Below, one piece after another: positions 5,971-55,443 of a stretch of DNA of 64,000 nucleotides. The stretch covers positions 248,001-312,000 of the forward strand of contig NZ_WUBS01000004.1 in NCBI RefSeq assembly GCF_010131535.1, read 5' to 3'. Position numbers and translations under genes: made by a program. The DNA is from Acerihabitans arboris (lineage in GTDB: Bacteria; Pseudomonadota; Gammaproteobacteria; Enterobacterales; Enterobacteriaceae). A model generated the notes under the pieces. It saw nothing but the letters and a program-made list of their open reading frames with translations. It did no database searches and was not told the origin of the DNA. Every line of letters begins with the position of its first letter. Position 1 is the first letter of the stretch.

Positions 5971-6414
5971 TCAGGCCGGATAAATAACAAATTCTTCAAT
6001 CGCCTGCCGATTGCTCCAGGATTTGGTCAGTAAAGCCGCCTCTGCCGCCGGCAGCCAGCGATAAGCCAAATGTTCACTGATCGCGGGTACCCGTTCTGAG
6101 GGTAACGTCAAACTGAACCAATATTCTGTATTGCGCGTCACTCCCGGCGCATATCGGTGACGTAAATGACTGAAAATTTCAAATTCGATACAGCGCTCGC
6201 AGTCGCGCAGCACCAGGCGCTCGGCGTCGATATCGATACCGGTCTCTTCCCTGACCTCGCGCGCGGCGGCGGCGGCCGGGGACTCATCGCCCTCCAGGCT
6301 GCCGGTTACCGACTGCCAGAACTGCGCATCATCGCGCCGCTGCAACATTAACACCCGGCCGCTATCGCCGGCATAAATGACGATCAATACCGAGACCGGG
6401 CGTTTCCAGGCCAT
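5971..6414 (-). CDS. nudB: dihydroneopterin triphosphate diphosphatase NudB
   Basis: A Nudix hydrolase of 147 residues that removes pyrophosphate from dihydroneopterin triphosphate in folate synthesis. The Nudix box runs from GSLEGDE to REVREETGI, residues about 38-60. The ATG directly follows the aspS stop (TAA ATG with no gap), so the two are translationally linked. It precedes yebC by 23 bases. Confidence 0.95.
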
Positions 6415-8205
6415 TTATTGCTGTCCGCGTTCCGCCGCTTCCTTGCCCTTGCCAATCACGGCAATGGACAGTTCCGCCAGCGCGGCGGCGTTGCCGAAGC
6501 TTGGGGCGTCGGTCATCGGATCGGCCGCCGCCGTGGTCTTTGGAAACGCAATAACGTCACGGATATTGTCGGTGCCGGTCAGCAGCATCACCAGCCGGTC
6601 CAGGCCAAAGGCCAGGCCGGCATGGGGCGGCGTGCCGTATTTCAGCGCGTCGAGCAGGAAGCCGAATTTTTCCCGCTGTTCATGTTCGGTGATGCCGAGG
6701 ATGCCGAACACCGTTTGCTGCATTTCGCTGCGATGGATACGCACCGAGCCGCCGCCGACTTCGTAGCCGTTCAATACCATATCGTAGGCGTTGGCGACAG
6801 CGTCCAGCGGCGCGGTCGCCAGCGCCGCTGGATCCATGGACAACGGCGCGGTAAAGGGATGATGCATCGCCGCCAGGCCGCCCTCGTCGTCCTCTTCGAA
6901 CATCGGGAAATCAATCACCCACAGCGGCGCCCAGCGGGTTTCGTCGGTGAGCTGCAAATCGCGGCCCAGTTTCAGGCGCAGCGCGCCCAGCGCGTCGGTG
7001 GTGATCTTGTGGCGATCGGCGCCGAAAAACAGGATATCGCCGTCCTGCGCGCCGCTGCGGGCAAGGAGCGCCTCCAGCACGGCGGCGTCGAGGAATTTGG
7101 CCACCGGGCTTTGTATCCCGTCCAGGCCCAGGTCACGCTGGTTGACCTTGATGTACGCCAGGCCCTTGGCGCCGTAGATTTCGATAAACTTGCCGTATTC
7201 GTCGATTTGCTTACGGCTGAGATGGCCGCCGCCGGGAACGCGGATGACCGCCACGCGGCCTTTGGCGTCGTTGGCCGGGCCGGAGAAGACCTTGAACTCC
7301 AGGTCCTTGACCAAATCGGCCACGTCGACGATTTCCATGGGATTGCGCAGATCGGGTTTATCGGACCCAAAGCGGCGCATCGCCTCGGCATAAGTCATCA
7401 CCGGGAACGCGCCCAAATCGACGCCCTTGATTTCCTGCCAGAGCGCGCGCACCAGACGTTCCATCACTTCACGCACCTGCCCGGCGCTCATAAAGGAGGT
7501 TTCCACGTCGATCTGGGTAAACTCGGGCTGGCGGTCGGCGCGTAAATCCTCATCGCGGAAGCATTTCACGATTTGGTAGTAACGGTCGAAACCGGACATC
7601 ATCAATAGCTGTTTAAACAGCTGTGGCGATTGCGGCAGCGCATAAAACTTGCCTTTATGCACGCGGCTGGGCACCAGGTAGTCGCGCGCGCCTTCCGGCG
7701 TGGCCTTGGTCAGCATCGGGGTTTCGATATCCAGGAACCCCTCGCCGTCCATAAAACGGCGCACCGCGCTGGTGATACGCGCGCGCGTCTTCAGCCGTTG
7801 CGCCATTTCGGGACGGCGCAGATCCAGGTAACGATACTTCAGCCGCTGCTCTTCGGTATTGGTTTGGTTTGAATCGAGAGGCAGGGGTTCGGAGCGGTTG
7901 ATAATGGTAAGCTGCGTTGCCAGCACTTCCACCTCGCCGGTAGCCATATCTTTATTGATCTGGTTGTCAGGGCGCGCCCTCACGATGCCGGTCAGCTGGA
8001 TGCAAAATTCGTTGCGCAGTTCGGCCGCGCGGCTGAATGCCTCCTGGCGATCGGGGTCGAAAAATACCTGCGCCAGCCCCTCACGATCCCTCATGTCGAT
8101 AAAAATCAGCCCGCCCAGGTCCCGGCGGCGGTTAACCCAGCCGCACAGTGTCACTTCCTGGCCTACATGGGACAGGTTGATCTGCCCGCAATATACAGTA
8201 CGCAT
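6415..8205 (-). CDS. aspS: aspartyl-tRNA synthetase
   Basis: A class II aminoacyl-tRNA synthetase of 596 residues that charges tRNA-Asp. I chose the ATG at 8205 (MRTVYCGQ) because it matches the E. coli N-terminus; an upstream in-frame ATG at 8271 would add 22 unrelated residues. The order is anticodon-binding OB fold ([12 protein letters not shown]), class II motif 2 ([18 protein letters not shown]), bacterial GAD insert, and motif 3 ([13 protein letters not shown]). It is the first gene of the aspS-nudB-yebC-ruvC unit and is divergent from yecD. Confidence 0.98.
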
Positions 8206-8535
8206 AACGATATCCTTGATTTTCAGCCCGCGCCGTCCCGCTAACTCAAGCGGGGCAGGGCTGTTATTCATTAATGACGACAGTGGCGGCGATGCATCGG
8301 TATTTTGCCGGCGTTCGAAAGGCGGCCATTATAAAGGAAATTCACCCGCAGGATAAGCCCGTCTGCACCCCGCGCGCGTCGGCTGGTTAAATAATCATTC
8401 ATTAACATACTTATTAACAAAAATTCCACCCGGGACACTGTCATAACACCACATTGATAACATACCCTCTTGCGATGGCTATATGAACAGGCAGCGACCT
8501 GTAATAAGGGTATTGTTATCAACCGGAGACGTTTT

Positions 8536-9102
8536 ATGCTTAAACTTGATCCTTCACGCAGCGCGCTGGTGCTGATTGACCTGCAAAAAGGCATCGTGCC
8601 CTTTGCCGGCGGCCCCTATACCGGTGAACAGGTGGTCACCCGGGCCGCCGCATTGGCGAAACATTTTCGCGCGCTGGGCGCGCCGGTATTCCTGGTACGG
8701 GTCGGCTGGTCGCCGGACTTTGGCGACGCGCCGCAACAACCGGTGGATGCTCCCTCGGGCGCAAAAAACCTGCCGGAGGACTGGTGGGAATTCCCCGCGC
8801 AATTGGGCGCGCAGGATAGCGATATCCGCATTATCAAACGCCAGTGGGGAGCGTTTTACGGCACGGATTTGGATTTGCAGCTGCGCCGTCGCGGCATCAC
8901 CACCATCGTGCTGGCCGGCATCTCCACCAATATCGGCGTGGAATCCACCGCGCGCAACGCCTGGGAAATGGGCTATGAACTGGTGCTGGTCGAGGATGTT
9001 TGCAGCGCCCACAACCAGGAACAGCACGACGGCAGCATGAAAAATATTTTCCCGCGCATCGGCCGGGTGCGTACCAGCAAGGACGTGCTGGCCGCTTTCT
9101 GA
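8536..9102 (+). CDS. yecD: isochorismatase-family hydrolase YecD
   Basis: A 188-residue cysteine-hydrolase/isochorismatase-fold protein, collinear with E. coli YecD (also 188). The family Asp (D15 in LVLIDLQKG) and the Lys in IIKRQWGAF are present. The position of the nucleophilic Cys is Gly, in [14 protein letters not shown]. coli YecD and isochorismatases have the same substitution, so a non-thiol mechanism is likely and the substrate is unknown. I start it at the ATG with GGAG upstream. Divergent from aspS. Confidence 0.93.
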
Positions 9103-9303
9103 CCGCCTGGCGGCACGCGCCCGGGACGGCAGCCCCCGCAAGGGGCCGGGCCGCACCCAGCGCCGGGTTTACCCCTACAGCTTAACTCGCCGAGCTGGTC
9201 GGCGCCGGCATGGCCGGCGGTGGCACCGGGTTGAACCCGACGGTTGAGTCGCGCCGGGTTGGCCAGGCTGCATTGGCCCGATCGGCAATCCCATGCTGGT
9301 TAT

Positions 9304-9954
9304 TCACGCCAGGGAGAAATATTCCAGCCTGGTGCAGGGAAAATCAACGATCAGTTTATCCAGCACCCGCTTCTCGTCTTTGAATACCGTCATCCAGATT
9401 GACCAGCCGCCGCTTAATTTAGCCAAATCGACAATCACCAGCGCATCAAGGACGCCCGCGCGCCAAGGCGTAAGGTAGCGCTCGGCCAGCGCCCAAATAG
9501 CCCGTCGATCGCTCCAGCGTTTATCCCTGGGGCTGTAGTCGGGATGCCCGGGCCGCCGGTCCAGTCCCACCAGCCGGATAAGCGACCGGGCTTTTTCCCG
9601 CGCCGCCGGACAGGCGAGCGCCGCCCGGTTGATATCCACCCTGCCGTCCCAGTGATAGGCAAATATGCGAAACGTATCGCTGACGGTGGGAAAATACATG
9701 TCTTTGACGGCGTTGACCCCTTTTACCGAATTGCAGTTTTTACAGGCCAGTAGAAAATTGGACCATAAATTCATCCGTTCTATATACTGGCTTTTATGCC
9801 TGATATGTTCCACATCGATGCCGCATGAATAGCTGTGGCGCTCGCAATAGCTGCAATAAGCGCCGATAGCTCGCATAAGATCGGTTTTGGCGCTGCCATA
9901 GGGTTTATATTCCGCTTTCCGTGCGGTAAACGATCTTTTATTGAGCGGCCGCAT
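9304..9954 (-). CDS. HNH endonuclease, PtuB-like (Septu anti-phage system)
   Basis: A 216-residue protein with an HNH zinc-finger nuclease domain: C34-x2-C37, H50 in VEHIRHK, N66, C71-x2-C74 and N75. The C-terminal 140 residues match nothing I recognise. The ATG overlaps the TAA of the upstream ATPase gene (TAATG), so translation is coupled. An HNH protein paired with an overlapping SMC/ABC-like ATPase is the composition of Septu (PtuA/PtuB) systems, where PtuB is the effector nuclease. The pair interrupts yecD-yecE and faces the opposite way, a sign of insertion. Confidence 0.75.
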   Translation of the reverse strand: MRPLNKRSFTARKAEYKPYGSAKTDLMRAIGAYCSYCERHSYSCGIDVEHIRHKSQYIERMNLWSNFLLACKNCNSVKGVNAVKDMYFPTVSDTFRIFAYHWDGRVDINRAALACPAAREKARSLIRLVGLDRRPGHPDYSPRDKRWSDRRAIWALAERYLTPWRAGVLDALVIVDLAKLSGGWSIWMTVFKDEKRVLDKLIVDFPCTRLEYFSLA

Positions 9955-11246
9955 TATGATCCTTTTAGCTTTCTCTCGGTGGCTAATAAATACGCCAGGA
10001 CGGGATTATCCATAAATTCGGTTTCGATATTATCCAGCGCCTGTTTGGCGGCTGTCTTACTCGCCTCGGACACGGTGTCGCTGTTTAGCAGCGAAAAATA
10101 ACGCTCGGCCAGGCGCTGGTACGCAAGGAATCGTTTGCTGCGCCTGACGTCCCCGACATCCATTTCATCCGCAACGATATCCTCCAGGCCCTTCATGTTG
10201 GTATTGTCCGAGGTGCTTTCCACCCGGCACTCGGCCAGTTTGATAAGCTCATGGCTTTGCATGGACTGGATAATAAACGGCGAATGGGTGGTGGCGATAA
10301 ACTGGATGCGGGGAAACGCATCCTTGAGCAGTTGCACGACGTCGCGCTGCCAGGACGGATGCAGGTGCATATCCAGCTCATCAATCAGCACCACGCCTTC
10401 GGTAAGCAACACGGCATTTTCCCGCAGGTGCGGGTTGAGTTTTATCGCCCGGTAGGCGATGTCGGCGGACAGCCTGATGATACTGCGGTAGCCGCTGCTG
10501 AGCATGTCGAACGATGTCCAGGTGCCGTCCGCCATGTAGCCGAGGATGGTATTGTGCGTCCAGCTGTAATGAATTTTTTGCCAGTTCGGCACCAGGGTGG
10601 TAATGGTATTCACAAAGGCGTCATATAAGCTTTTTTCCCGGGCGAACTTCAAAATCGAATCCTCATAATCGGCGAACCAGGATATAAAACGCTCCTGCAG
10701 GACGTGGGGATCGAGCGCCGCGGCATAACCCTCCGTCCGGGCCGTGGCCCGGGAGAGGCGATGGCGTTGGGATGTATCGCTGAATAACCGGGCGGTGCCG
10801 TAATAGGCAATCAGGGGTAAAGTGGTATTATCATTCGCTTCATAAATATTCTTACATAAACGTTCCGCATGCTTAATCATGGCGTTCGCATCTTTGTAGG
10901 AGGTCGATCCGCCGGTGACTTTGTCCGTTTCGCGCGTCCAGCGATATTCTTTATCCTGCAGGGTATGGCACAACGCCACTTTAAACGGCAGTTGGATATG
11001 CAAGGCGTTTTCCGTTAGTACTTTTCTTTTTTCGTGTTGCCTGAGCGTGCGGATTTCAATGGCGCTGTCGCCGGTGACCTTCCTGACGCCGATAAAAAAA
11101 GTGCCCAGCGCAAAAGAAATAGCGTCGAGAATGCTGGTCTTACCCGTTGCATTATCGCCGATAATAACATTGAAGCGTTCATTAAATTCCAATTCTAATA
11201 ATTCAAAGCATTTGAAATTATTCAATGAAATGGTTTTTATTTTCAT
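9954..11246 (-). CDS. AAA/ABC-type ATPase, PtuA-like (Septu anti-phage system)
   Basis: A 430-residue ATPase of the COG3950/RecF-SMC-like type. It has Walker A GDNATGKTS at residues 30-38, a signature-like LSSGYRS near 245-252, Walker B VVLIDELD with D289/E290, and an H-loop TTHSPFII near 320. I chose ATG 11246 (MKIKTISLNNF), which starts at the first beta-strand of the fold and has AGGAT upstream; the long ORF begins 47 codons earlier without support. It is coupled to the downstream HNH gene. In Septu, PtuA senses infection and controls PtuB. No reverse transcriptase lies nearby, so it is not a retron-type version. Confidence 0.78.
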   Translation of the reverse strand: MKIKTISLNNFKCFELLELEFNERFNVIIGDNATGKTSILDAISFALGTFFIGVRKVTGDSAIEIRTLRQHEKRKVLTENALHIQLPFKVALCHTLQDKEYRWTRETDKVTGGSTSYKDANAMIKHAERLCKNIYEANDNTTLPLIAYYGTARLFSDTSQRHRLSRATARTEGYAAALDPHVLQERFISWFADYEDSILKFAREKSLYDAFVNTITTLVPNWQKIHYSWTHNTILGYMADGTWTSFDMLSSGYRSIIRLSADIAYRAIKLNPHLRENAVLLTEGVVLIDELDMHLHPSWQRDVVQLLKDAFPRIQFIATTHSPFIIQSMQSHELIKLAECRVESTSDNTNMKGLEDIVADEMDVGDVRRSKRFLAYQRLAERYFSLLNSDTVSEASKTAAKQALDNIETEFMDNPVLAYLLATERKLKGS

Positions 11247-11435
11247 ATATATCCTGTTGCCATGTGTTATTTTTATTATGCAATAGCGATAATCCCCCGT
11301 CCATAATAACATGCAACTATTTCGACGAGCTAAATAGAGCGCCGCAATTCCGCGCGGCTGAATATCTTGCCGTGGCGGCGCTGTCACGTTAATCTGTTAT
11401 TATTAATACGCTAAAAGACAAGGATGAGTGCCGCC

Positions 11436-12251
11436 ATGTTTATCGGCTTGCCACAGTGGCACCATGCCGCCTGGAACCCTATCGGCATTGCCGGCCTGGC
11501 GGATTACGCCCGCTATTTTAACTGCGTGGAGGGCAATACCACGCTGTATGCCCTGCCGGATCCGGCGCGGGTATATGACTGGCGCGCCATGACCGGCGAC
11601 AGTTTCCGTTTTTGCTTTAAATTTCCCGCCGCCATCAGCCACCAGGGCGGGTTGCGCGATTTCCGCACCCAGCTTGCGCAGTTTTATCAGGTGCTCGATC
11701 CGTTGGCAGGCCGCATCGGCCAATACTGGCTGCAATTGCCGGCCGCCTTCGGCCCGGCGGAGCTGGATTATCTGTGGAACTTCCTCGACGCCTTGTCCGG
11801 AGGATTCAGCTATGGGGTGGAAGTGCGTCATCCGCTGTTCTTCGCCAAGGGCGACGACGAACGGCGGCTTAACCAGGGTTTGCAGCAGCGCGGCGTCAAC
11901 CGGGTGATCCTCGACAGCCGTCCGGTGCATCAATCCGCCGGCGCGTCTGCCGCCATGCTGGCGGCCAAACGCCAAAAACCCAAGGTGCCGGTGCATGCCG
12001 TACTCACCGGCGACCGGCCGTTGGTTCGTTATATCGGCAATGATGATATAACCGACAGCGTCCGGCTGTTCCAGCCCTGGCTGGATAAGCTGGGGCTGTG
12101 GGCGCAAAGCCGTTCGCCCTATCTGTTTATCCATACGCCCGATATCGGCCATGCGCCGCGCCTGGCCCAGCAGCTGTGGCCGCTGCTCGCGGCCCGCATC
12201 AGCGGCGTTGGGCCGATACCGCCCTGGCCGCAACAGGCCCCATTGTTTTGA
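11436..12251 (+). CDS. yecE: DUF72 family protein YecE
   Basis: A 271-residue TIM-barrel protein of the DUF72 family, collinear with E. coli YecE; its function is unknown. Recognisable blocks are CVEGNTTLYALP, FRFCFKFPA, YGVEVRHP and FIHTPDI. I prefer the second ATG (MFIGLPQW), matching the E. coli N-terminus; starting at 11424 would add four residues. It is divergent from the PtuA-like gene and begins the yecE-yecN-cmoA-cmoB run. Confidence 0.94.
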   Translation: MFIGLPQWHHAAWNPIGIAGLADYARYFNCVEGNTTLYALPDPARVYDWRAMTGDSFRFCFKFPAAISHQGGLRDFRTQLAQFYQVLDPLAGRIGQYWLQLPAAFGPAELDYLWNFLDALSGGFSYGVEVRHPLFFAKGDDERRLNQGLQQRGVNRVILDSRPVHQSAGASAAMLAAKRQKPKVPVHAVLTGDRPLVRYIGNDDITDSVRLFQPWLDKLGLWAQSRSPYLFIHTPDIGHAPRLAQQLWPLLAARISGVGPIPPWPQQAPLF

Positions 12252-12351
12252 CTGTTGAAAACAGGGTATTTTTAGCACGATAATAACGACAGCGCCACGC
12301 TGTCAGGATATCATTTGCACGCTGCTTGGTTTCTGGGTAATGGAGTTGAAG

Positions 12352-12747
12352 ATGGTAAGTGCGCTTTATGTGGTTTTCGGCGCCATGTTGTTGATTAAGC
12401 TGTCATTGGATGTCGTAAAATTACGAACGTCATATCGTGTGGCCTACGGCGACGGCGGTTTTTATGAATTGCAGACGGCGATTCGCGTGCATGGCAATGC
12501 GGTGGAGTATATCCCCATAGGCCTGCTGATGCTGGTGATCATGGAAATGAACGGCACGCCGAACTGGACCCTGCATCTGTGCGGGCTGATGCTGATGGCC
12601 GGCCGGATTATGCACTCGCTCGGCCTGCGCCAGCGGGAGTTTAGCTGGCGTCGTACCGGCATGAGCGTCACCTATGCGTCGTTGATCATGATGGTGTTGC
12701 TTAATTTGTGGTATCTGCCCTGGGAACTGGTGTTAAGCTGGCGTTAA
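12352..12747 (+). CDS. yecN: MAPEG-family inner-membrane protein YecN
   Basis: A 131-residue integral membrane protein of the MAPEG (eicosanoid/glutathione metabolism) family with four predicted transmembrane helices. The family block FYELQTAIRVHGNAVEYIP is present. E. coli YecN is the same size. I start at MVSALY, which has GGAG six bases upstream. The substrate is unknown. Confidence 0.93.
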   Translation: MVSALYVVFGAMLLIKLSLDVVKLRTSYRVAYGDGGFYELQTAIRVHGNAVEYIPIGLLMLVIMEMNGTPNWTLHLCGLMLMAGRIMHSLGLRQREFSWRRTGMSVTYASLIMMVLLNLWYLPWELVLSWR

Positions 12748-12775
12748 CACCGCGCGTGCCGGCGGCATAAAGGAT

Positions 12776-12798
12776 GGCGGCACATGATTTGTGCCGCC
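12776..12798. other. 9-bp-stem hairpin between yecN and cmoA
   Basis: GGCGGCACA (12776-12784) pairs with TGTGCCGCC (12790-12798) across a 5-nt loop. No T-run follows. It may terminate or process the yecN message or lie in the cmoA leader; the sequence does not decide. Confidence 0.5.
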
Positions 12799-12813
12799 GA
12801 TCTGTTAGAATAG

Positions 12814-14555
<1,742 letters not shown>

Positions 14556-14619
14556 CGTGCCCGCGCAGACCGCGTCGGCATTAGCGACCGGAGGTTCGGT
14601 ACATGACGCTGCGGCGGAT

Positions 14620-14649
14620 AAAAAAAAGCCCCAAGAAATATATTGGGGC
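14620..14649 (-). terminator. intrinsic terminator of cutC/MicL
   Basis: On the minus strand GCCCCAA (14643-14649) and TTGGGGC (14628-14634) form a 7-bp stem with an 8-nt loop, followed by eight T residues. It ends the cutC transcript and would give the 3' end and Hfq-binding tail of MicL. Confidence 0.9.
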
Positions 14650-14700
14650 CTGGTACTTGCAAGCATCACGCGGGTTAGTTCGTGTGCGCGGCAAAATCAG
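14620..14700 (-). ncRNA. micL: MicL small RNA from the cutC 3' UTR
   Basis: In E. coli the sigma-E-dependent sRNA MicL is made from the 3' end of cutC and represses lpp translation by pairing just inside the lpp reading frame. Here the cutC 3' UTR on the minus strand contains AGTACCAG (14650-14657). This is exactly complementary to CTGGTACT, the sequence spanning lpp codons 6-8 in E. coli. An intrinsic terminator with a long T-run follows. The 5' end is estimated; I could not find a convincing sigma-E promoter inside cutC by eye. Confidence 0.6.
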
Positions 14701-14703
14701 CGG

Positions 14704-15468
14704 TCAGGCCGGCCGGTGCGAGGGGGAGGATGCAGAGGCGGACAGCGCATGTTTCATCGCCGCCACCATATCGCCATCGACGCAAAATCGGGTAAATTCA
14801 TCCGCTTCGTTGTCCACGCTCATGCTTACGCCCGCTTTGCGGTAACGCATCCCGGAAGCAACCACCTGTCTTGCGGAACTGTGCAGTTCACGGATGCCAA
14901 TTTGTTGGAACTTATGCAAATTGGTTAACCTCACGCCAGCGCCTGCCATAATGATTGGACCACGGCTTTGGGCATTCAGTTCCCTTAATAATGCTAAACC
15001 TGTTTCGGCGCTTTGCTGTTGGCCGGAGGTCAGGATGCGCGCCACGCCCAGATCGGTTAATTGCTGCAACGCCTGGTAGGGATTGATGCACATATCGAAG
15101 GCGCGGTGGAAGGTGACCGCCACGCCAGCGCATTGCGCCATGATGCGCCGCATGCGCGGCAGATCGATATGCCCTTCTTGGTCCAGCACGCCGACCACCA
15201 CCCCGGGAAAGCCCCAATCGCGTACCAACGCCAGATCGTTAAGCATGCCGTCGAACTCGATTTCACTGTAGCAAAAATCGCCGCCCCGTGGCCTGACCAT
15301 GGGGTGAACGGGAAGCGTAAGCCTTTCCCTTGCCAGTTGAAGCGTGCCGTGCGAGGGCGTCAGCCCCCCTTCTGTCGGGGCCGAGCACAACTCGATCCTG
15401 TCCGCTCCCGCTTGCTCCGCCGTTATGGCGCAGTCAAGGCTATAGCAGCAGACTTCCAATTTAGGCAT
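14704..15468 (-). CDS. cutC: CutC family protein
   Basis: A 254-residue TIM-barrel protein of the CutC family (E. coli 248), cytoplasmic. It opens with [25 protein letters not shown] and has [12 protein letters not shown] and [10 protein letters not shown]. Its old assignment to copper homeostasis is doubtful, because the copper phenotype in E. coli was later traced to MicL. It is convergent with cmoB and divergent from the C-S lyase gene. Confidence 0.95.
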
Positions 15469-36523: not shown

Positions 36524-37351
36524 GGTGCAAAACCTTTTCATCTTCAAACTTTTTTCACAACTAAGCATTTAACATACCGGCAGAGAGGGCAAAGAACAAT
36601 CTTGCGCCTGCGCCGTGAAATCGTGTCTGGCCCCGAGCACATTGCTAAAATCGGCAATGGCTAATAATCATGCCGACATTTATAGTCAATTTTTTGCCGG
36701 CCGTTGACAATTAGTGCTTAAGAGCCCCGTCCGACGGAGTCCTTTACAGGACGATATGACATAAAATGTTCACATTTACGCAACGGAAAGTGAAATCACT
36801 AAGAATTATCTCAAGCTAACCGGCACCCTGGTCCGGTAAAAAAAGTTAGCCATTTTCTTGTGCGAAAGGAGGAAACACCGGATTGCCGATATCTTAGTTA
36901 CCCTGCGCCAAAAGGCGCAGCAAGGCTGGCGGCATGAATAATTATTCTAGAACCTTCGTCCGGAACCGGTTTACGTTTAAATAACGTTCTGATCTTTAGA
37001 CAATAGTGGCAATACCAAGTCCAATAAGCCTATCTGTTTTACTATCGGTAAACGCCTAGAGGGCTACGTTGGGGCCGGTGTGGGATTAGGTTAACAGGCT
37101 GGTTATTTACAATTAAAAGTTTAAAGTTAATGCGTTTCTATTCAACGCGGCAAAAGCGAAAAGGATGAAATTTTATAAAAACCCCTAGCAAAATGCCTAA
37201 ACTATTAGTCTTTGCTAATTTCACTTGCGCCTGATGTCATGATTTGTTGTTTTTAAATTCAGAATTATTACCGTCGCGAGATCTGAGAGCTCGTCTATTG
37301 TTTATATGGACTCATTCTGCAAAACGTAAAAACAACCTATTGGAGGAACAT
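36524..37351. other. long intergenic region at the left edge of an AT-rich island
   Basis: More than 800 bases between divergent ghrA and the regulator gene, with no ORF I can support. A TTGACA at 36704 could be a -35 box, but no matching -10 is obvious. I looked for a JUMPstart/ops element and did not find one. It probably holds promoters and regulator-binding sites. Confidence 0.5.
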
Positions 37352-37370
37352 ATGATCAGGTAAGTGGGGG

Positions 37371-37415
37371 ATGAAAAAAATAAAATATCAGGCAGTTGGC
37401 CTTTATACATCTTGA
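37371..37415 (+). CDS. possible 14-codon leader peptide before the regulator
   Basis: GTGGGGG directly precedes an ATG opening a 14-codon frame (MKKIKYQAVGLYTS) that ends eight bases before the regulator's candidate ATG at 37423. A three-codon frame, ATG ATC AGG TAA at 37352-37363, with a strong GGAGG, lies just upstream. Tandem mini-frames with good ribosome sites suggest a translated leader or coupling; chance is possible. Confidence 0.3.
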   Translation: MKKIKYQAVGLYTS

Positions 37416-37422
37416 AAATTTT

Positions 37423-38304
37423 ATGATCGCGCGTAACGTGCGCATCAGTGATGCAATAAGAAAAAAAATACTATTGAGGTATTTGGAGATGAAACTTACA
37501 CAACCCATCACGATCAATCATCTTGAAGTGAAAATTGCGCCCGACATCCATAATCGACTTCGCTGGAAAGAGTATCAGATTCTCAATTTATTAATCCAGA
37601 ATTCACCTGCGGTAGTGACGCGCGCTGAGCTGGTCAACCAGATATGGAAAGGAACCTATTGTTCGGATTCAACCATTAACCAGACGATCAAATCGATACG
37701 TCAAAAGTTGGGAGATGATAACCATGACATTATCAAAACCATTCCTCGCATTGGCTACATTATTGAGGAAAAACAGATGGTTAATATTTCATTTAATCCT
37801 GCGTCCTTGGACGAAGCCGTGCCAGAGGCATTACCTCAGCAGCCTCCACAGCTACCGGAATCCAGCAATAAAGCGGCCTACGATAGCGGGATCCAGGACA
37901 ACCCGCCCCTGGATGACGAGATTTACGGCCAACCCATCTGGGCATTGCCCTCTCATTCAAGAACAACCAAGACGATCGCTAAAACCACAGTGAATAGATC
38001 GAATGCGTTAAGAGATGTTTCCTACGCTTTTGCCGCAAGGATTCTTCAAACAAAAAGTAAAATCATGATGGGATTGTTTGCTTTTTTTATTTTATCACCT
38101 TTGATAATGTATTTATTTTCAACAATTAAGATCCCGTTTGCCTCATATGCGCTGGAATTGGCCAGGTTCAACAAGGTCAGCGCAGTGACGCTGACCTGCC
38201 CATTGGGATATAACAGCGCATCCAGCGATGCGTTTTCCTGTAAAAGCATGACGGTTAAATTCGACGGCATCGCCTTTGATTGCCAGGCATTAGGCGATAA
38301 ATAA
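37423..38304 (+). CDS. CadC/ToxR-like membrane-anchored winged-helix regulator
   Basis: A 293-residue protein with an N-terminal OmpR-type winged helix (RWKEYQILNLLIQNS, then STINQTIKSIRQKLGDD and TIPRIGYII), a charged and proline-rich linker, one membrane helix (IMMGLFAFFILSPLIMYL) and a short C-terminal tail of about 50 residues with three Cys. This is the CadC/ToxR layout, with a very small periplasmic sensor whose cysteines could be redox-sensitive. The start is uncertain: ATG 37423, or ATG 37489 with GAGG nine bases upstream. A terminator separates it from the flippase gene. Confidence 0.75.
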   Translation: MIARNVRISDAIRKKILLRYLEMKLTQPITINHLEVKIAPDIHNRLRWKEYQILNLLIQNSPAVVTRAELVNQIWKGTYCSDSTINQTIKSIRQKLGDDNHDIIKTIPRIGYIIEEKQMVNISFNPASLDEAVPEALPQQPPQLPESSNKAAYDSGIQDNPPLDDEIYGQPIWALPSHSRTTKTIAKTTVNRSNALRDVSYAFAARILQTKSKIMMGLFAFFILSPLIMYLFSTIKIPFASYALELARFNKVSAVTLTCPLGYNSASSDAFSCKSMTVKFDGIAFDCQALGDK

Positions 38305-38345
38305 TCTTACCTGGTCAGCGCCGCTATGATGATCTTCTTAATAAG

Positions 38346-38373
38346 AGCCCGAATGATGATTCGGGTTTTTTTT
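38346..38373 (+). terminator. intrinsic terminator of the regulator gene
   Basis: CCCGAAT (38348-38354) pairs with ATTCGGG (38359-38365) across a 4-nt loop, followed by eight T residues. Confidence 0.92.
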
Positions 38374-38644
38374 GCCTCAAAAAATTCATACTGCCTATAA
38401 AGTGAAATGAAATAAAGATGAAATATGGTTTTCACATTAAAGCGTTATGGATTTATAAAATAAAACTCAACATTGCTTTAATATTTTACTTTTTTTTATT
38501 TGCGCATATATCCATAAGGCTATATTTTTCGATTATTCGATAAAGTTATATTTCGGATGAGAGCCTATGGCCTCCATTCCTAAGTAAAGTTTAAAAGCTC
38601 TATTGAGAATGGCATTTTCATAAAATTTTACCCATAAGAGGATC

Positions 38645-39967
38645 ATGCGAGCTATCATCTATAATTCATTGTGGATCATACTTGAGAAATTTTGCTTTGC
38701 CGGTGCCGGCATCATTTCTGCAATGTATATAGCCCGCTATTTAGGGCCTGAAAATTTCGGGACATTAAGCTATTTAGTGTCTATTATTGCGCTGATATTG
38801 CCCTTTATACAACTGGGCAGCGACAATGTATTGTTTAATCGTATTGCGAAGAAGCCGCACAGCGGCATGAATTTAATGATCGCCTCATTACGATTGAAAT
38901 TGATGCTATTCATCATTTTTAGCATTGGACTTATTACCTGGGCCTGTTATTTTTTACCCCTGGAACATACCGAGATATTGCTGGTACTGTTAGCAGGGAC
39001 GTTTTTTACTTTACGCGACATCTATAAGCTGTATTACGATGCCACCCTGGCATCCAAAGTTAATCTGGTGATCAACAATTCGGTGCTGGTGCTATTCGTG
39101 GCGACCAACCTGATGTTCGCCTGGCTGCAGTTGAGTTTAATATGGTTTGCATTTTCACTGGCGGTCCGAAGTATTATTCCTTATATGGTGAGAAAAATAC
39201 TGTTTAGCCGGGAGCAGCGCGCTAAAGGCATGCGGCATAAAAGAAGGCTTAAAGCGAAATACAGTACCTTTTATAATATTTATTTGCTCAAAGTGGGTTT
39301 CCCGCTGGCCATATCCAGCCTGGCAATAGTGATCTATACCCGTATCGATCAGATAATGCTGGCAAAATTTATGGGTTACCATGCCGTGGGTATTTATAGC
39401 GCGGCTCTGGCAATAAGCGGGGGATGGGTGCTGGTTCCCATGGCTTTGATAACCTCGTTTATGAGCACCATCGCCAGCGAGCGCGATGCCCGCAGAGCCG
39501 GCGACCGGGTGCGTATGCTTTATATGATTACGCTGGCGCTCTGCGCGCCGGTGATCGTGGCTTTAGGTTTTTTCAGCAAGGATATCATACAGTTAATTTA
39601 TGGCGACGCGTTTATGGATTCGGCATCTATCCTGTTGATATGTGGATTGACTTCCCTTTGCAGCGTATTGGGCACCATTTCGTATCGGATAATACTGATG
39701 CACTCCGGCTATCGTTTCGTCGCGTTAAAGATGCCGGTTATCGCATTACTAAACATTGGTCTTAATTATCACTTTATCCCGCTCTTTGGCATTAAAGGAG
39801 CGGCGTTATCCACCTTATTGTCCGAAGTCATATCACTATTGGTGCTCAATGCGATGTTCAAAAAAGGGTTAGTCACTTACCAGCTGTTCAGTGCCTATAA
39901 AAGTATTCCAAAATTTATAATTGAGGTGCAAAACTATGTTAAATCCACTCGTCAGGCAAGCCTTTAA
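38645..39967 (+). CDS. polysaccharide flippase (Wzx/MOP superfamily)
   Basis: A 440-residue multi-pass membrane protein of the oligosaccharide-flippase family. The N-terminus shows the family motif ARYLGPENFGTLSY, followed by about 12 hydrophobic helices and the mid-protein block YTRIDQIMLAKFMG. AGAGG lies four bases before the ATG. It probably moves a lipid-linked oligosaccharide across the inner membrane. No polymerase, initiating transferase or sugar-nucleotide genes lie nearby, so its substrate must be made elsewhere. The composition is AT-rich relative to the flanks, suggesting transfer. Confidence 0.88.
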   Translation: MRAIIYNSLWIILEKFCFAGAGIISAMYIARYLGPENFGTLSYLVSIIALILPFIQLGSDNVLFNRIAKKPHSGMNLMIASLRLKLMLFIIFSIGLITWACYFLPLEHTEILLVLLAGTFFTLRDIYKLYYDATLASKVNLVINNSVLVLFVATNLMFAWLQLSLIWFAFSLAVRSIIPYMVRKILFSREQRAKGMRHKRRLKAKYSTFYNIYLLKVGFPLAISSLAIVIYTRIDQIMLAKFMGYHAVGIYSAALAISGGWVLVPMALITSFMSTIASERDARRAGDRVRMLYMITLALCAPVIVALGFFSKDIIQLIYGDAFMDSASILLICGLTSLCSVLGTISYRIILMHSGYRFVALKMPVIALLNIGLNYHFIPLFGIKGAALSTLLSEVISLLVLNAMFKKGLVTYQLFSAYKSIPKFIIEVQNYVKSTRQASL

Positions 39968-40784
39968 CTTGTTACCGGACATGTTATATCATCAATTAAA
40001 ATATGCGCGCGTTTTCAAAAAATGGCCTAATGTTGCCCAGCCCACAACTTTTAGTGAAAAAATCACCATTAGAAACTTTCGGCCTAAAACTATCTACACC
40101 AATTTAGCGGATAAATTTAAGGTGCGCGAGTATATCGCCAACACCATTGGGGAAAAGTATCTTATTAAACTGCACGCCGTCTTTGGCGAACTGACGGCAG
40201 AGATTTATTCCAATCTGCCGGATGCGTTTGTTATCAAGGCCAACCATGGCTCCGGCTTTAACCTGGTGGTGCATGATAAATCCGACACCACCTTTGAACA
40301 GCTCAGCGCGTTGACCCGCTACTGGACTAAGACCAATTATTATAAGAAGAGCAGGGAAAGGCACTATAAAAAAATCCAGCCCTGTATCCTGGTAGAGCAC
40401 CTGTTGCAGGATGAGGGTCACATCCCGAACGATATTAAATTCCACTGTTTTAACCGCCAGGGGGATATGCATATCTTTATCCAGGTCGACTACGATCGTT
40501 TTGGGCTGCATCGCCGCGACGTATTCGATACCGACTGGAACAAGACCGATATCCGGATGGGATTGCCTAATAACCCCACGCCGATGCCCGCGCCCAAGAA
40601 CCTGCCTGAAATGGTGGCCCTGGCAAAACGGCTGGCGTCTGATTTCAATTATGTCAGGGTGGATTTTTATGAAGCCGAAGGCAATGTGTATTTTGGCGAG
40701 TTAACATTCACTCCCGGTGGGGGACTGTGCAAAATGTATCCGGAAAATGTGCAGCATCAATGGGGCAGTTTTTTCACCGAATGA
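39936..40784 (+). CDS. TupA-like ATP-grasp enzyme
   Basis: A 282-residue protein of the ATPgrasp_TupA type found in capsule and teichuronopeptide clusters, where members are thought to join amino acids or sugars to surface glycans. Visible blocks are TFSEKITIRNF, YTNLADKFKVREYI, VIKANHGSGFNLVV (nucleotide-binding loop) and the C-terminal GELTFTPGGGL. I use the ATG at 39936 with GAGG upstream; it overlaps the flippase gene by 32 bases. The two are co-translated and probably act on the same glycan. Confidence 0.82.
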   Translation: MLNPLVRQAFNLLPDMLYHQLKYARVFKKWPNVAQPTTFSEKITIRNFRPKTIYTNLADKFKVREYIANTIGEKYLIKLHAVFGELTAEIYSNLPDAFVIKANHGSGFNLVVHDKSDTTFEQLSALTRYWTKTNYYKKSRERHYKKIQPCILVEHLLQDEGHIPNDIKFHCFNRQGDMHIFIQVDYDRFGLHRRDVFDTDWNKTDIRMGLPNNPTPMPAPKNLPEMVALAKRLASDFNYVRVDFYEAEGNVYFGELTFTPGGGLCKMYPENVQHQWGSFFTE

Positions 40785-40861
40785 TGCTGTGGCGTTGAAC
40801 GAATGACCATAACAATAAAATGTGATTAACACGTTTTTTACTGCTGCCATGCTGTTTACAC

Positions 40862-40919
40862 GCGGAACGGGAATAGCACACCCGCACTAAACTAACGGGT
40901 CGGCTATTCCCCGCTTTTT
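40862..40919 (+). terminator. terminator after the flippase/ATP-grasp genes
   Basis: A long hairpin with outer stem GGGAATAGC (40869-40877)/GCTATTCCC (40903-40911) and an inner ACCCG/CGGGT stem, followed by five T residues. It closes the operon before the tRNA gene. Confidence 0.75.
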
Positions 40920-41158
40920 CGACGATTAATTTGCCACAGCGTTTGGATTTCGCTTAATCTCGCGGAAAATAACCGGCCCAGCCCTTCCCTGCCCCGCCGC
41001 CGTATAATCTCTCAGGCAGGCCGGATTCCAATAATATCTTCGCCGGACCACAGATACGCTCAAACCCTGAGCAAACGGCGCAGCCGTGATAAATTATACT
41101 TGACCGGAATGGGCCGAATCCCTATAGTACCGCCCCGTTGACCCTTGGTTAACAGCGT

Positions 41159-41248
41159 GGTGAGGTGTCCGAGTGGCTGAAGGAGCACGCCTGGAAAGTG
41201 TGTATACGAGAAATCGTATCGAGGGTTCGAACCCCTCTCTCACCGCCA
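41159..41248 (+). tRNA. tRNA-Ser (GGA anticodon)
   Basis: A 90-nt class II tRNA with acceptor GGTGAGG, D arm GTGTCCGAGTGG, anticodon GGA in CCTGGAAAG, a long variable arm, T loop GGTTCGAAC and encoded CCA. It closely matches E. coli serW/serX, and serX also lies between ghrA and phoH there. The adjoining AT-rich island makes it a candidate integration target. Confidence 0.97.
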
Positions 41249-41330
41249 TAATTAATAAGGTCAGCGTCCTGGCCGCAGAGCCGGAACGTTGTCGTAAGGC
41301 ATCATTATAAGATAGAGTTATACGTTGCTC

Positions 41331-41367
41331 TGAAAAGAAAAGCCCGGATGGCTATCCGGGCTTTTTT
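41331..41367. terminator. bidirectional terminator between tRNA-Ser and phoH
   Basis: AGCCCGGAT (41341-41349) pairs with ATCCGGGCT (41354-41362) across a 4-nt loop, with six T residues on the plus strand and an A-rich run upstream for the minus strand. Confidence 0.92.
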
Positions 41368-41411
41368 CGTCTCAGGCGGCCGAGTTAGACGGTACGCGCG
41401 AGCCGCAGGGG

Positions 41412-42203
41412 TTAACGGTAGGCATTCAGCGTTCGCTGGCATAGCGCCGAGCGCACGCAGTCCTGTTTGCCAAAACGCACTACGCCTATCATCTCGTCCT
41501 CTTCGGTAAATCTCTCCAGTGCATCCGCCAGTCCGGATTTTACCCCTCTGGGCAAATCACATTGGGTAATATCACCGTTCACGATCACCGTGACATTTTC
41601 CCCCAGCCGGGTTAAGAACATTTTCATTTGGTTAACGGTAACATTCTGCGCCTCATCCAGAATAACCACCGCATTTTCAAATGTCCGTCCGCGCATATAC
41701 GCGAAAGGCGCGATCTCCACTTTGCCGATTTCCGGTCGCAGGCAATATTGCATAAAAGACGATCCCAGCCGGCGCAGCAAAATATCATAAACCGGTCGGA
41801 AATAAGGGGCGAATTTTTCAGCGATATCTCCGGGCAGGAAACCCAGATCCTCGTCGGCCTGTAATACCGGCCGGGTGACGATAATACGTTCAACCTCTTT
41901 GTGGATTAACGCATCTGCCGCCTTGGCGGCGCTAAGGAAGGTTTTGCCACACCCCGCCTCGCCGGTTGCAAAAATTAACTGTTTAGTCTCAATGGCTGTT
42001 AAGTAAGCTTCCTGGACTTCATTACGTGCCTCAATTAACCTGGTGTCGCGACTGTCGCGCGCCATGCCTATCGATTCAATCCCGCTCATATGAACAAGAG
42101 AAGTGACCGAGTCCTCTTCACGCATTTTGTGATTGCGTGATTCACGCCGGATAACGCGTTTAGCTTCGCGACGAGCTTTGATCACTACTTTTTGTCTTCC
42201 CAT
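41412..42203 (-). CDS. phoH: PhoH family ATPase
   Basis: A 263-residue cytoplasmic P-loop ATPase of the PhoH family, phosphate-starvation-inducible in E. coli and suspected to act on RNA. Walker A is GEAGCGKT, followed by RIIVTRPVLQADEDLGFLPG and VVILDEAQNVT (Walker B). I start at MGRQKVVIKARREAKR with AAGGTG upstream; a further ATG lies 33 bases upstream. It is convergent with tRNA-Ser and divergent from putA. I could not confirm a Pho box by eye. Confidence 0.94.
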   Translation of the reverse strand: MGRQKVVIKARREAKRVIRRESRNHKMREEDSVTSLVHMSGIESIGMARDSRDTRLIEARNEVQEAYLTAIETKQLIFATGEAGCGKTFLSAAKAADALIHKEVERIIVTRPVLQADEDLGFLPGDIAEKFAPYFRPVYDILLRRLGSSFMQYCLRPEIGKVEIAPFAYMRGRTFENAVVILDEAQNVTVNQMKMFLTRLGENVTVIVNGDITQCDLPRGVKSGLADALERFTEEDEMIGVVRFGKQDCVRSALCQRTLNAYR

Positions 42204-43014
42204 AAGTGGCACCTTACAGTTTGTTTCACCATTCACTCAGGCGCGGGCCTGGTGATTACGCTTCACATTCAGATGAGGTTGTGGCTTCCTTTAAAGCCAA
42301 TAATAGCCATGAGATAAGATGACATAGCCCGGTGAGTCCGCGTGGACAATACGGACGCGGCGGGATGCGCATCGGGTGGAAAATAGCGAAAAAGTGTGGA
42401 ACAGCAGAGAACACTAACATTGCCGGTCGGCAAAAACGAAGTTGGAAACAGAGTGTTGAAATTACAACCGCCGAACGTTCCGGTGGCGATTGCTATAGAA
42501 CCTGGTATTGCCATCAGCCCATAAAAGGACACTGTCATTAGCGATCCCCGCAGTGAGGTTTAGAATTTCGCATCTGAACAACTTTCTGAACTAGCGCTTG
42601 ATGTCTTCAGTATAATGACATTGCTACAATTTGCTGTCCGAATGCAATATTTTTTTTAGCGATCGGACAAATAATAAGCAGAGGCCGTTACGCTTGCCTG
42701 GTTAAAAACAATACAATATAAATTCTCCGACCTTATTCAATGCCGATATTAACCCGGGCGGCGGGATTTTTCCCGCTGCGCTTGAAAAAGAACGCACGGG
42801 ATAAAAAACATCATTTATTACAAATTAACTCCCTATTACCCTTGGCTAAGCTAAAACCGGACATCCCGCGACGCGGCAGCGCGCCGTTTCACCCCAAGCG
42901 CAGGGCAATAACACGCCCCCGATTTAACCATAAGTTAATTGTTTATTAACCCGGTTGCACTTAGTTGCAACATTGGCGATAGTGATATCTCACAGGGTCG
43001 CCGGGGAATTCGCG
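42204..43014. other. phoH-putA intergenic region, putP absent
   Basis: Roughly 800 bases between divergent phoH and putA. It should contain both promoters and PutA operator sites. In E. coli the proline permease gene putP is divergent from putA, but no such gene is here. Short frames at 42332-42541 and 42740-42949 look non-coding. Confidence 0.6.
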
Positions 43015-52416: not shown

Positions 52417-52696
52417 CGGAGAACAACGCCAGTCTTCCGGCATGCCCCACGTTCCACTGACAAACTGCTGGGCTGGCTGCAACCATGCAGGCCAGCCTAA
52501 CCCGCAAAGCGCCAGTTAACCGTTTTTTCACCGTTCTCTTGCGTAAGGCGCCATGCGCGGTCCGCCAGCGGGACAATGTGGGTGAGCGGGTGTTGGTTTG
52601 GAATGTTCTTAAAAAAATGACCCAATCCCCGATAACAGGAAATATCGACATTTTCGCCTATATTAAGTAGGTAGACACTCAATAAGGACGATAACA

Positions 52697-52951
52697 ATGT
52701 TTGATAAAGCCAAAGATAAAGCAGAAGAAATTGCGGGTAAAGGCCAGGAAGAATTTGGCCGCGCCACCGGTGACAACGCGTTGCACCTGGAAGGAAAACT
52801 GCGCAAACGCGCCGCGCAGGCGTCCTACAGCGTGAACGATTGTATTGACCAGATTAAAGAAAAAACCGCAAGCGACCCTATTCCGGCATTGCTTATTGCC
52901 AGCGGCGTGGGGTTTCTATTAGCTAAAATTATAGGTCATCGCCGTCGCTAG
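52697..52951 (+). CDS. CsbD-like/ElaB-YqjD-type small stress protein
   Basis: An 84-residue protein. The N-terminal half is CsbD-like (FDKAKDKAEEIAGKGQEEFG and a repeat-like continuation). The C-terminal half ends in a membrane helix (PIPALLIASGVGFLLAKIIG) followed by HRRR, the tail of ElaB/YqjD ribosome-anchoring proteins. This mixed layout suggests a membrane-associated stationary-phase or osmotic-stress protein. AAGGACG lies upstream. It lies outside the flagellar operons, in the fliT-fliE gap. Confidence 0.8.
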   Translation: MFDKAKDKAEEIAGKGQEEFGRATGDNALHLEGKLRKRAAQASYSVNDCIDQIKEKTASDPIPALLIASGVGFLLAKIIGHRRR

Positions 52952-53048
52952 CCCTGACCGGTCGACGCCGGGCGATGGCAGGCTGTAACAGACGATTGCC
53001 CGGTGTTGCGTTAAGCCCGTGATAACAAAAGCAGCAAGAGCTATACCG

Positions 53049-53258
53049 ATGGCGAAGTGGTATCATTACCTTTTCACCATAGCCGCGGCGATAATTATGT
53101 CTATCTTTGATGCGCTTAAGGCGTTCGGCAGTACCTCAGTTAAAGTCACGTGCCCGGAATGCGGTTACGTTACCCAGCAACCCGCTCTGAAAGTGCGCAA
53201 AAACATCACCTTAGTCTGCCCGAAATGCGGCCACTATTTCCTGCCGAAAGACAAATAG
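53049..53258 (+). CDS. small zinc-ribbon protein (YnfU-like)
   Basis: A short protein whose C-terminal 45 residues form a zinc ribbon with CPECG and CPKCG 28 residues apart. The start is unsure. From ATG 53049 it has 69 residues and an N-terminal hydrophobic segment (LFTIAAAIIMSIFDAL); from ATG 53097 it is a soluble 53-residue ribbon. Neither start has a good ribosome site. The function is unknown. Confidence 0.6.
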   Translation: MAKWYHYLFTIAAAIIMSIFDALKAFGSTSVKVTCPECGYVTQQPALKVRKNITLVCPKCGHYFLPKDK

Positions 53259-53288
53259 ACCTAAGCCTCCCGATAAATAATCACCGCG

Positions 53289-53492
53289 CTATACCCTGAG
53301 CAGGCCTATCGCCACACCGATAAAAAAACGCCGGATTTCATCATGCTCCCGCTCCTGCTCGGCGGCCAGGTAGGTCACGATAGCGCCCGGATGGATTCTT
53401 GCGCCCCGCCGATGCAGCGCCAGGCTGGCCTGGCCTATCAACAGACTTACCGTATCATGGGTCTGCCGCAACGCCTCTGCCGGTATTGTCAT
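53289..53492 (-). CDS. small helical protein, possibly YmgB/AriR-like
   Basis: A 67-residue protein. I start at MTIPAEALRQTHD because GGAGG lies five bases upstream of that ATG. The block RRGARIHPGAIVTYLAAEQE followed by a C-terminal helix recalls the GkxlnRxaIxxxLxxxlE pattern of YmgB/AriR/YcgZ connector proteins, which link stress signals to biofilm control. The resemblance is weak. It is convergent with the zinc-ribbon gene. Confidence 0.5.
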   Translation of the reverse strand: MTIPAEALRQTHDTVSLLIGQASLALHRRGARIHPGAIVTYLAAEQEREHDEIRRFFIGVAIGLLRV

Positions 53493-53700
53493 CACCACCT
53501 CCCATTCTTTCTTATCCATTTTGCCGGCGTAATATTGCAGAGAAATGAACGTGGGAAGAAAAGCCGCGGCAACGGGGCATGACGGCAAGCAGTGCCGCTA
53601 TACCGACATATTCATGATATGAGTGATAAAACTGGATTTTTAAAATATCTGCGCATAATTCCTCCACAGGCACTAATAATATTGGATTACATTGGAAGGG

Positions 53701-53835
53701 ATGCGTAATGATCCAGCGGTAACACCTATGATGCGCGTGTTTGATGAATTTCTAAAAGAAAAAGAACATGATATTGAAGAGGCGTTTGAGCGTATAGATA
53801 ACTTTGCGGTGGCTATTGCAATGGCTAAATTTTGA
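53701..53835 (+). CDS. possible 44-codon protein, unknown
   Basis: An ATG preceded by GGAAGGG opens a 44-codon frame with an acidic, helical translation (FDEFLKEKEHDIEEAFERID) ending in AIAMAKF. I recognise no family. The spacing between the ribosome site and the ATG is very short. It could be a real small protein or the tail of a decayed gene at the left edge of the phage-like remnant. Confidence 0.35.
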   Translation: MRNDPAVTPMMRVFDEFLKEKEHDIEEAFERIDNFAVAIAMAKF

Positions 53836-54255
53836 GGTAGGGGAAAAGATTAATACAGACATGACAATAATGCGACAAATGAGCTGGTTGATAGCTATAA
53901 TAGAAAAGAATGAAAATAAGTAGAGCATCATCAATACTATGGCTTATTCCACATCTATCGAGGCCAGGGTTTTGCAAGCATTACCGCTCCGCTAGCCTGC
54001 TCTCGCACTCGGTTGTTTATCAATTTCGGGCCTACCCTGGCCCGCTTCTTTATTTAGCTCATTATAGTATTACGCGTTGATTGGTTTAATGGCATTGATA
54101 CTGGAGCGGCGGGCGAATTTAGTTTTGCTGACAAAGCGGACGTGTGGGGATACTTAAGAATAATTTATCCATGCTTTTCTTCACAACCTCAATAAAAAGA
54201 ATAACATACATACAATACCCTCATGGACCACAATAGTGATCCGGCGTTATTTGAT
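53836..54255. other. AT-rich stretch without a recognisable gene
   Basis: About 420 bases with no supportable ORF, RNA gene or repeat, between a possible small ORF and decayed coding sequence. Confidence 0.5.
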
Positions 54256-54822
54256 TCAATTTTCCGGGGCTGTATCGGTCGTTTCTGTCACCACCAGCTT
54301 TACTAAATGGGGTGATGTGATGTTTTTTTCCAGTATGGGCACGATCGCGATTTGGCTGCATGCCGACTGGGATCGGTAGCGCAGTAAAGCCACGAAATAA
54401 TAGCGCCGCGTGACGACATAACACCAGATACCTTGTCCATTAAACTAGCGCAAGTTACCGTGTCATAAACAGTATTATATAAAGCCATCAATCCAATAGT
54501 GCCAGTCATGCCATTTTTTTATGGTTGACATACTGGTACTCGGCATGCCGTTAATGTAAATGGGTATCGTTGATTTTGTTTTGCCAACAATGGCCAAGGT
54601 TGTAACAGCGCCAGCGCTCGTGATCCGGTTTATTGCCGAAGTGCTTATTTGTATCGTTTGAACAATCCATGAGCCAGTAAACGAAATTGACAGATTAATT
54701 TAACTTCCGGCAGTGTTTGCCACCGAAAGGAATCCTGAGGAAGCGCAGTTTACGAATTATCCAAACCCGGCATGAGGTACGGCGGCGGTACTAATACTTC
54801 CAACCAGGCTTGATAAATTAAC
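54256..54822 (-). pseudogene. decayed gene, unknown, probably phage-derived
   Basis: On the minus strand a protein-like reading runs INLSSLVGSISTAAVPHAGFG, stop, FVNCASSGFLSVANTAGS, stop, then about 75 clean codons including TTLAIVGKTKSTIPIYING. After a stop it continues in other frames (YVVTRRYYFVALLRYRS, then ILEKNITSP) to a TGA at 54256. Several stops and frame changes in an otherwise natural composition indicate a broken gene. I do not recognise the family; its place beside an integrase scrap suggests phage origin. Confidence 0.5.
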
Positions 54823-55182
54823 TATACTCTTCATCTGGCAGATTTGGGTTGTTTAACGTTATACCTGATTTGGATCGCATCTTATACTCCAGCTATTTCA
54901 AATAGGCCAATTTGAGCAATACTCATTGCCCGAGACCCTGATATAACAATGGTGAGGCCAGTCACCGCGGCGGGAACGGCAAATTCCTTAACGTGCGGAT
55001 TTGGTTGGAGTCAATAGAACTGTTCCCGGTTAGAAACGATGTCGCCCGACACGTACCAAGATGCTCAGCATGTAACGCGTCCATCTGCGCTGGCCCGAGT
55101 CGATAGTCTTCCATCCCCTGCCCCAGATGCGGCGGATATCCACGCGCAGGACAACACGAGTTACGCCGTGTCGTCGTTAGGC

Positions 55183-55443
55183 CAAACATGGGACGCCGCA
55201 TTGCGGAAGAGCCGAGTACGCCGCAGAAATGCCTACCAATCGCGACATACTTATGCATGTTGGTCAATCGCGGCCGGCGCCAACCCCTCATTCATCGCTG
55301 CGCAAATGGACCACGCATCGGCACAGAGGGTTTTCACTGTTTACGGCGACTGGATGCCAGAAAACAACGAGGAGCAGGTCACGCTGCTAAATCAGAAATT
55401 GTCGTCTGTTGCCCCACCCATGCCCCACAGAGGAACAGCATAA
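55183..55443 (+). pseudogene. tyrosine recombinase (phage integrase) C-terminal remnant
   Basis: The last 85 or so codons of a Rac/P22-type integrase: VRRRNAYQSRHTYACWSIAAG, a catalytic-region HASAQRVF and the Tyr in VYGDWM, ending with APPMPHRG. The catalytic domain's first half and the N-terminus are missing. Upstream codons from 55039 are unrelated. No tRNA or attachment site is recognisable nearby. It marks an old integration between fliT and fliE. Confidence 0.8.

Follow-up and report, generated by a model that had tools for sequence, protein, structure and literature searches.

A predicted Septu type I gene pair between yecD and yecE in Acerihabitans arboris

Which system is encoded by the two overlapping genes that separate yecD from yecE in Acerihabitans arboris, and does their site attract defence genes? 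We addressed these questions in a 64,000-nucleotide stretch, hereafter the window (assembly GCF_010131535.1, contig NZ_WUBS01000004.1, positions 248,001 to 312,000), for which a preliminary description had proposed a Septu-like ATPase/HNH pair (PtuA/PtuB), perhaps of a divergent subtype and in a small defence-gene hotspot. Judged by its sequence, ptuAB is a real, intact and ordinary Septu type I, a known kind of system, at a lineage-specific site, and the sequence and model comparisons make it very probable that it is a chromosomal anti-phage system of this type. We favor this reading because the overlapping genes are intact, their predicted folds are those of the solved Septu chains of E. coli, the contig yielded no reverse transcriptase (RT), the pair shows signs of purifying selection, and its presence at this one site is patchy.

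Family assignment of the gene pair

The locus comprises the following features (aa, amino acids).

9954..11246, minus strand: ptuA, 430-aa SMC/ABC-type ATPase, with Walker A at 30-38, signature LSSGYRS at 249-255, Walker B D289/E290, and H321
9304..9954, minus strand: ptuB, 216-aa HNH protein, with C34/C37/C71/C74, H50, N66, N75, and a C-terminal part that is helical and contains GGWSIWMTVF
11247..11423, minus strand: AT-rich stretch ahead of ptuA, in which 11303-11275 (minus strand) is weakly sigma-70-like; a short part is kept in the sister genome described below
9103..9303, no strand assigned: GC-rich stretch from yecD to ptuB, in which neither a target-site duplication nor a terminal repeat is clear
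8536..9102, plus strand: yecD, left flank and site marker
11424..12251, plus strand: yecE (DUF72), right flank and site marker

The two minus-strand frames were recovered as first described (11246-9954, 430 aa; 9954-9304, 216 aa), joined by TAATG, in which the last base of the ptuA stop codon TAA is the A of the ptuB ATG. The ATPase motifs also lie where they had been placed, Walker A reading GDNATGKTS and Walker B VVLIDELD. The lower GC content attributed to the pair was borne out (ptuA, 50.7%; ptuB, 54.4%; versus yecD, 61.2%; yecE, 62.6%; aspS, 60.9%; cmoA, 59.0%). Six promoter-like sites were found in the scan versus 3.0 ± 1.9 expected, so the promoter evidence upstream of ptuA is weak.

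In the profile search that had been suggested beforehand, the two proteins matched the PADLOC models of Septu PtuA and PtuB, each nearly over its full length. Since these matches (4.5e-119 and 1.1e-60) cover nearly the whole proteins, they are not due to chance. Structures were predicted for the PtuA and PtuB chains singly, with AlphaFold alignments drawn from 44 (PtuA) and 48 (PtuB) of the 80 relatives described below; the predicted folds agree over nearly the full proteins with those of E. coli Septu type I (PDB 8ee4, 8ee7, 8eea, and 8sux), whose ATPase motifs are also shared. The locus thus has the composition of Septu type I: a Septu-family PtuA ATPase with an adjoining PtuB HNH protein, ATPase and HNH residues that are intact by sequence and conserved in the 80 relatives, and, in front of ptuA, yecE instead of an RT gene. 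PARIS (AriA/AriB) was considered and rejected, as the AriA-type ATPase is not the best family for this ATPase.

The suggestion of a divergent subtype did not hold. A PtuA of 430 aa is usual, the median being 440.5 aa among 78 PtuA frames adjoining PtuB relatives (each counted from its first possible start), and nearly full-length PADLOC models exist. The C-terminal part of the HNH protein, which had been regarded as an unknown domain, is a family feature: the PADLOC PtuB1 model takes it in (protein 1-214 aligned with model 1-213 of 227), as does the fold match to a solved PtuB (predicted-model residues 1-204 with 8eea_G).

Distribution of the pair and its insertion site

A scan of GTDB genomes with two peptide patterns, around YCSYCE and WSxWMTVF, yielded 319 PtuB-encoding stretches, and the best 80 come from many phyla according to their record titles. 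Catalytic and Cys residues are nearly invariant across these relatives; the conservation of the two motifs themselves is partly due to selection, because the relatives were found with those patterns. PtuA adjoins PtuB in 72 of the 80 by script and in 78 when six pairs whose longest frames overlap by more than 60 bases are added by hand; the remaining two begin at a contig edge. PtuA and PtuB distances are correlated over 72 loci (Mantel r, 0.71; none of 999 permutations as high). On plasmids, one weak, partial PtuB match was found together with 104 PtuA matches, all below 60% identity and 11 of them covering at least 80%. The phage collection gave no PtuB match, and viral contigs carried five PtuB relatives, four with a PtuA match upstream.

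Within the genus, the pair occupies the yecD-yecE site in two of six genomes; the other four sites are empty, the matched parts of yecD and yecE lying 39 to 81 bases apart. The second occupied genome, a sister genome holding the closest relative of the pair, is G248, a metagenome-assembled genome (Enterobacterales bacterium bin_27; locus L064 is the same contig), in which pair, site, and orientation are the same. Identities to the window are 81% for PtuA and 70% for PtuB, and 79%, 78%, 87%, 91%, and 91% for YecD, YecE, YecN, CmoA, and AspS, respectively. Its PtuB frame differs in having 225 aa and another tail, and the intergenic DNA is mostly different, with only short conserved stretches in the aligned flanks. 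No clear duplication marks the insertion boundary, and the repeats listed around the site look chance-like. In a tree of four flanking proteins, A. arboris (G000), G247, and G248 were joined with support of 100, and G247, whose site is empty, fell inside that group beside G248 (support, 72). By these sequences, one gain followed by one loss, or an exchange through the flanks, would fit the distribution, and independent gains on two occasions at this site are less probable. The pattern in the genus looks like that of a single, patchily present insertion and not that of a site of varied cargo. Other PtuAB pairs, 31 to 37% identical, occur elsewhere in G246 and G141.

Comparison of the gap across related genomes, another check proposed in advance, gave no support for a hotspot outside the genus. 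The survey included 246 family genomes (A. arboris among them) and used the yecE places of 131 others and the yecD places of 111. For yecE, the fragmented G051 and the A. arboris genome were left out and the 5′ piece of a split gene was used; for yecD, strong orthologues were counted and weaker paralogues left out (with some weak matches unlisted), and the whole span was taken where the gene is in two pieces (G104, G107, G201, and G028). Both genes lie on one contig and strand in 104 other genomes and are apart or inverted in 5, while 22 have yecE only and 2 yecD only; the remainder of the 246 did not enter the count. The gap in the 104 has a median of 8 bases, being at most 100 bases in 92, 103 to 321 in 11, and 953 in one (G171); this sole gap above 400 bases holds no convincing gene, and its frames look chance-like. 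The genes had been described as adjacent in E. coli, and indeed they overlap by 4 bases in two E. coli records, whereas here the pair stands between them on the opposite strand. A 247-base junction query was covered to at least 80% in one place in 5,374 of the 5,375 matching genomes among 5,426 E. coli genomes, a count in which pieces up to about 620 bases apart were joined, so that small insertions could hide. The one genome below 80% cover (H79) spans 210 bases, a shortened junction and not an insertion, and the 51 genomes without a junction match are uninformative. A literature search for Septu together with yecE gave no paper on this subject, judged by titles and abstracts.

The survey also showed yecE to be split in four family genomes (G065, G235, G237, and G140), with pieces about 40 to 42 kb apart near codon 36, and in G196, where about 11 kb separates the pieces near codon 169. 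The recurring event seems to be integration within yecE itself, not in the gap that separates it from yecD.

Alternative readings and proposed mechanism

Passages of the PADLOC paper (PMC8565338) equate PtuAB plus an RT with Septu type II, that is, type I-A retrons, and the canonical pair with type I. Type I-A retrons (Ec78/Eco7 and Ec83) share the PtuA/PtuB effector folds, and solved retron PtuA and PtuB chains match both predicted models well, so we considered that the window holds such a retron whose RT and noncoding RNA were missed or lost. We regard this as highly improbable and the retron reading as largely refuted. An RT belongs to these retrons, whose PtuA is usually longer (542 to 552 residues in the PDB chains listed, with one of 456, versus 430 aa here), and no RT gene adjoins ptuA. 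RVT_1 matched in three places of the A. arboris genome, namely on contigs C31, C8, and (below cut-off) C3, and nowhere on C34, the contig of the window. Rfam gave no family at its gathering score within 6000-14000 (which retron RNAs it covers was unchecked), and the sole match up to E = 1 is a subthreshold one to an unrelated family. No RT was found in the 80 relatives by phmmer with the RT frames of the A. arboris genome, a test that finds an RT in 7 of 26 loci (L032-L057) and could miss remote RTs or those past short contig ends. The NCBIfam models of retron Ec78 PtuA and PtuB scored below their cut-offs (198.8 against 500 bits and 25.7 against 150 bits). Elsewhere in the A. arboris genome, contig C8 (about 14480-15097; L062) carries a type II-A-like retron (NDT_II-A, 1.3e-90), whose RT scores nearly equally to RT_I-A and RT_II-A and adjoins a gene matching PDC-M04A (4.8e-22); the RT on contig C3 (about 199212-199643; L063) is best matched by PADLOC RT_VI (7.8e-104) and perhaps belongs to a type VI retron.

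Selection bears on two other explanations. Against G248, dN/dS (the ratio of nonsynonymous to synonymous substitution rates) is 0.09 for ptuA, 0.28 for ptuB, and 0.07 to 0.13 for yecD, yecE, cmoA, and aspS, figures that are rough because dS is high (1.39 for ptuA and 0.80 for ptuB). The faster evolution of PtuB could suggest a decayed or inactive remnant, but both frames are open, catalytic residues are kept, and ptuA has a low ratio, so we give this possibility hardly any weight. A Septu-derived pair that one lineage retains for a function unrelated to phage defence would agree with the signs of purifying selection and with the occupation of the same site in two species, between which the flanking proteins differ by 9 to 22%; this appears improbable, however, given the absence of the pair from the site in the other four genomes of the genus and the spread of relatives over many phyla, five of them on viral contigs, which is a usual pattern for defence genes. 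The following observations do weigh against assignment to Septu type I: the high dS values, the low structural-alignment identity to solved E. coli Septu (28 to 30% for PtuA and 22% for PtuB), and the equally good fold match of retron PtuB chains. The low identity means that target and trigger may differ from those of the solved systems, and the equal scores mean that the PtuB fold by itself does not separate Septu from retrons.

As a Septu type I system, PtuA would hold PtuB in an ATP-controlled complex. Infection would free or activate the PtuB HNH site (H50/N66/N75 beside a Cys4 zinc site), and PtuB would then cut a nucleic acid, stopping phage production at a probable cost to the host cell. 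PMC13096335 describes Septu EcB88 of E. coli B88, which likewise pairs ptuA with ptuB and has Walker and H-N-H residues. There, immunity was lost on mutation of Walker A/B in PtuA or of H75/N91 in PtuB, and the cut in tRNA-Tyr fell in the variable loop. The H-N spacing is 16 residues in both systems, and K36, D289, H50, and N66, compared through the reported residue positions, are likely counterparts of the EcB88 residues. Nicked phage DNA is reported for the Septu of E. coli ATCC 25922 in passages of PMC11555353. For retron-Eco7 PtuAB, tRNA-Tyr has been reported as the target.

The window PtuB has two CxxC pairs plus CxxCN, whereas 8ee7 PtuB, as aligned, has Ser in place of the first pair's second Cys and shows no second pair. 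An unlikely variant of our reading would be a stand-alone Septu whose docking site is specific to the lineage. The pair would have been acquired once, ahead of the divergence of three species, and then either cleanly lost from one of them or exchanged there through the flanks; its PtuB, with the complete Cys4-zinc HNH site and in this unlike the E. coli PtuB 8ee7, would hit a third target, for example another tRNA, instead of nicked phage DNA or tRNA-Tyr.

Window context and implications

Three other features of the window were noted, with genes named by eye. A tandem array at 2526-2752 (45-base unit, 5.0 copies, 95% matches) closely follows the 3′ end of a ruvB-like gene. The stretch 52417-55443 includes about 2.6 kb lacking open reading frames of at least 120 aa and ends in a 134-aa frame that resembles the C-terminal portion of a phage-type integrase. 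Finally, 37000-43000 is low in GC (38 to 52% per kb) and contains winged-helix regulator-like, polysaccharide flippase-like, and ATP-grasp-like genes; it adjoins tRNA-Ser (41159-41248), besides which no tRNA gene was found in the window.

With this analysis, a genus of the family searched gains a well-supported Septu type I locus, and two suggestions, the divergent subtype and the hotspot, are corrected. The PtuAB systems tested so far differ in target, DNA or tRNA-Tyr, and the group with the complete zinc site, 319 stretches in GTDB genomes, would be a sensible set in which to study how the target is determined.
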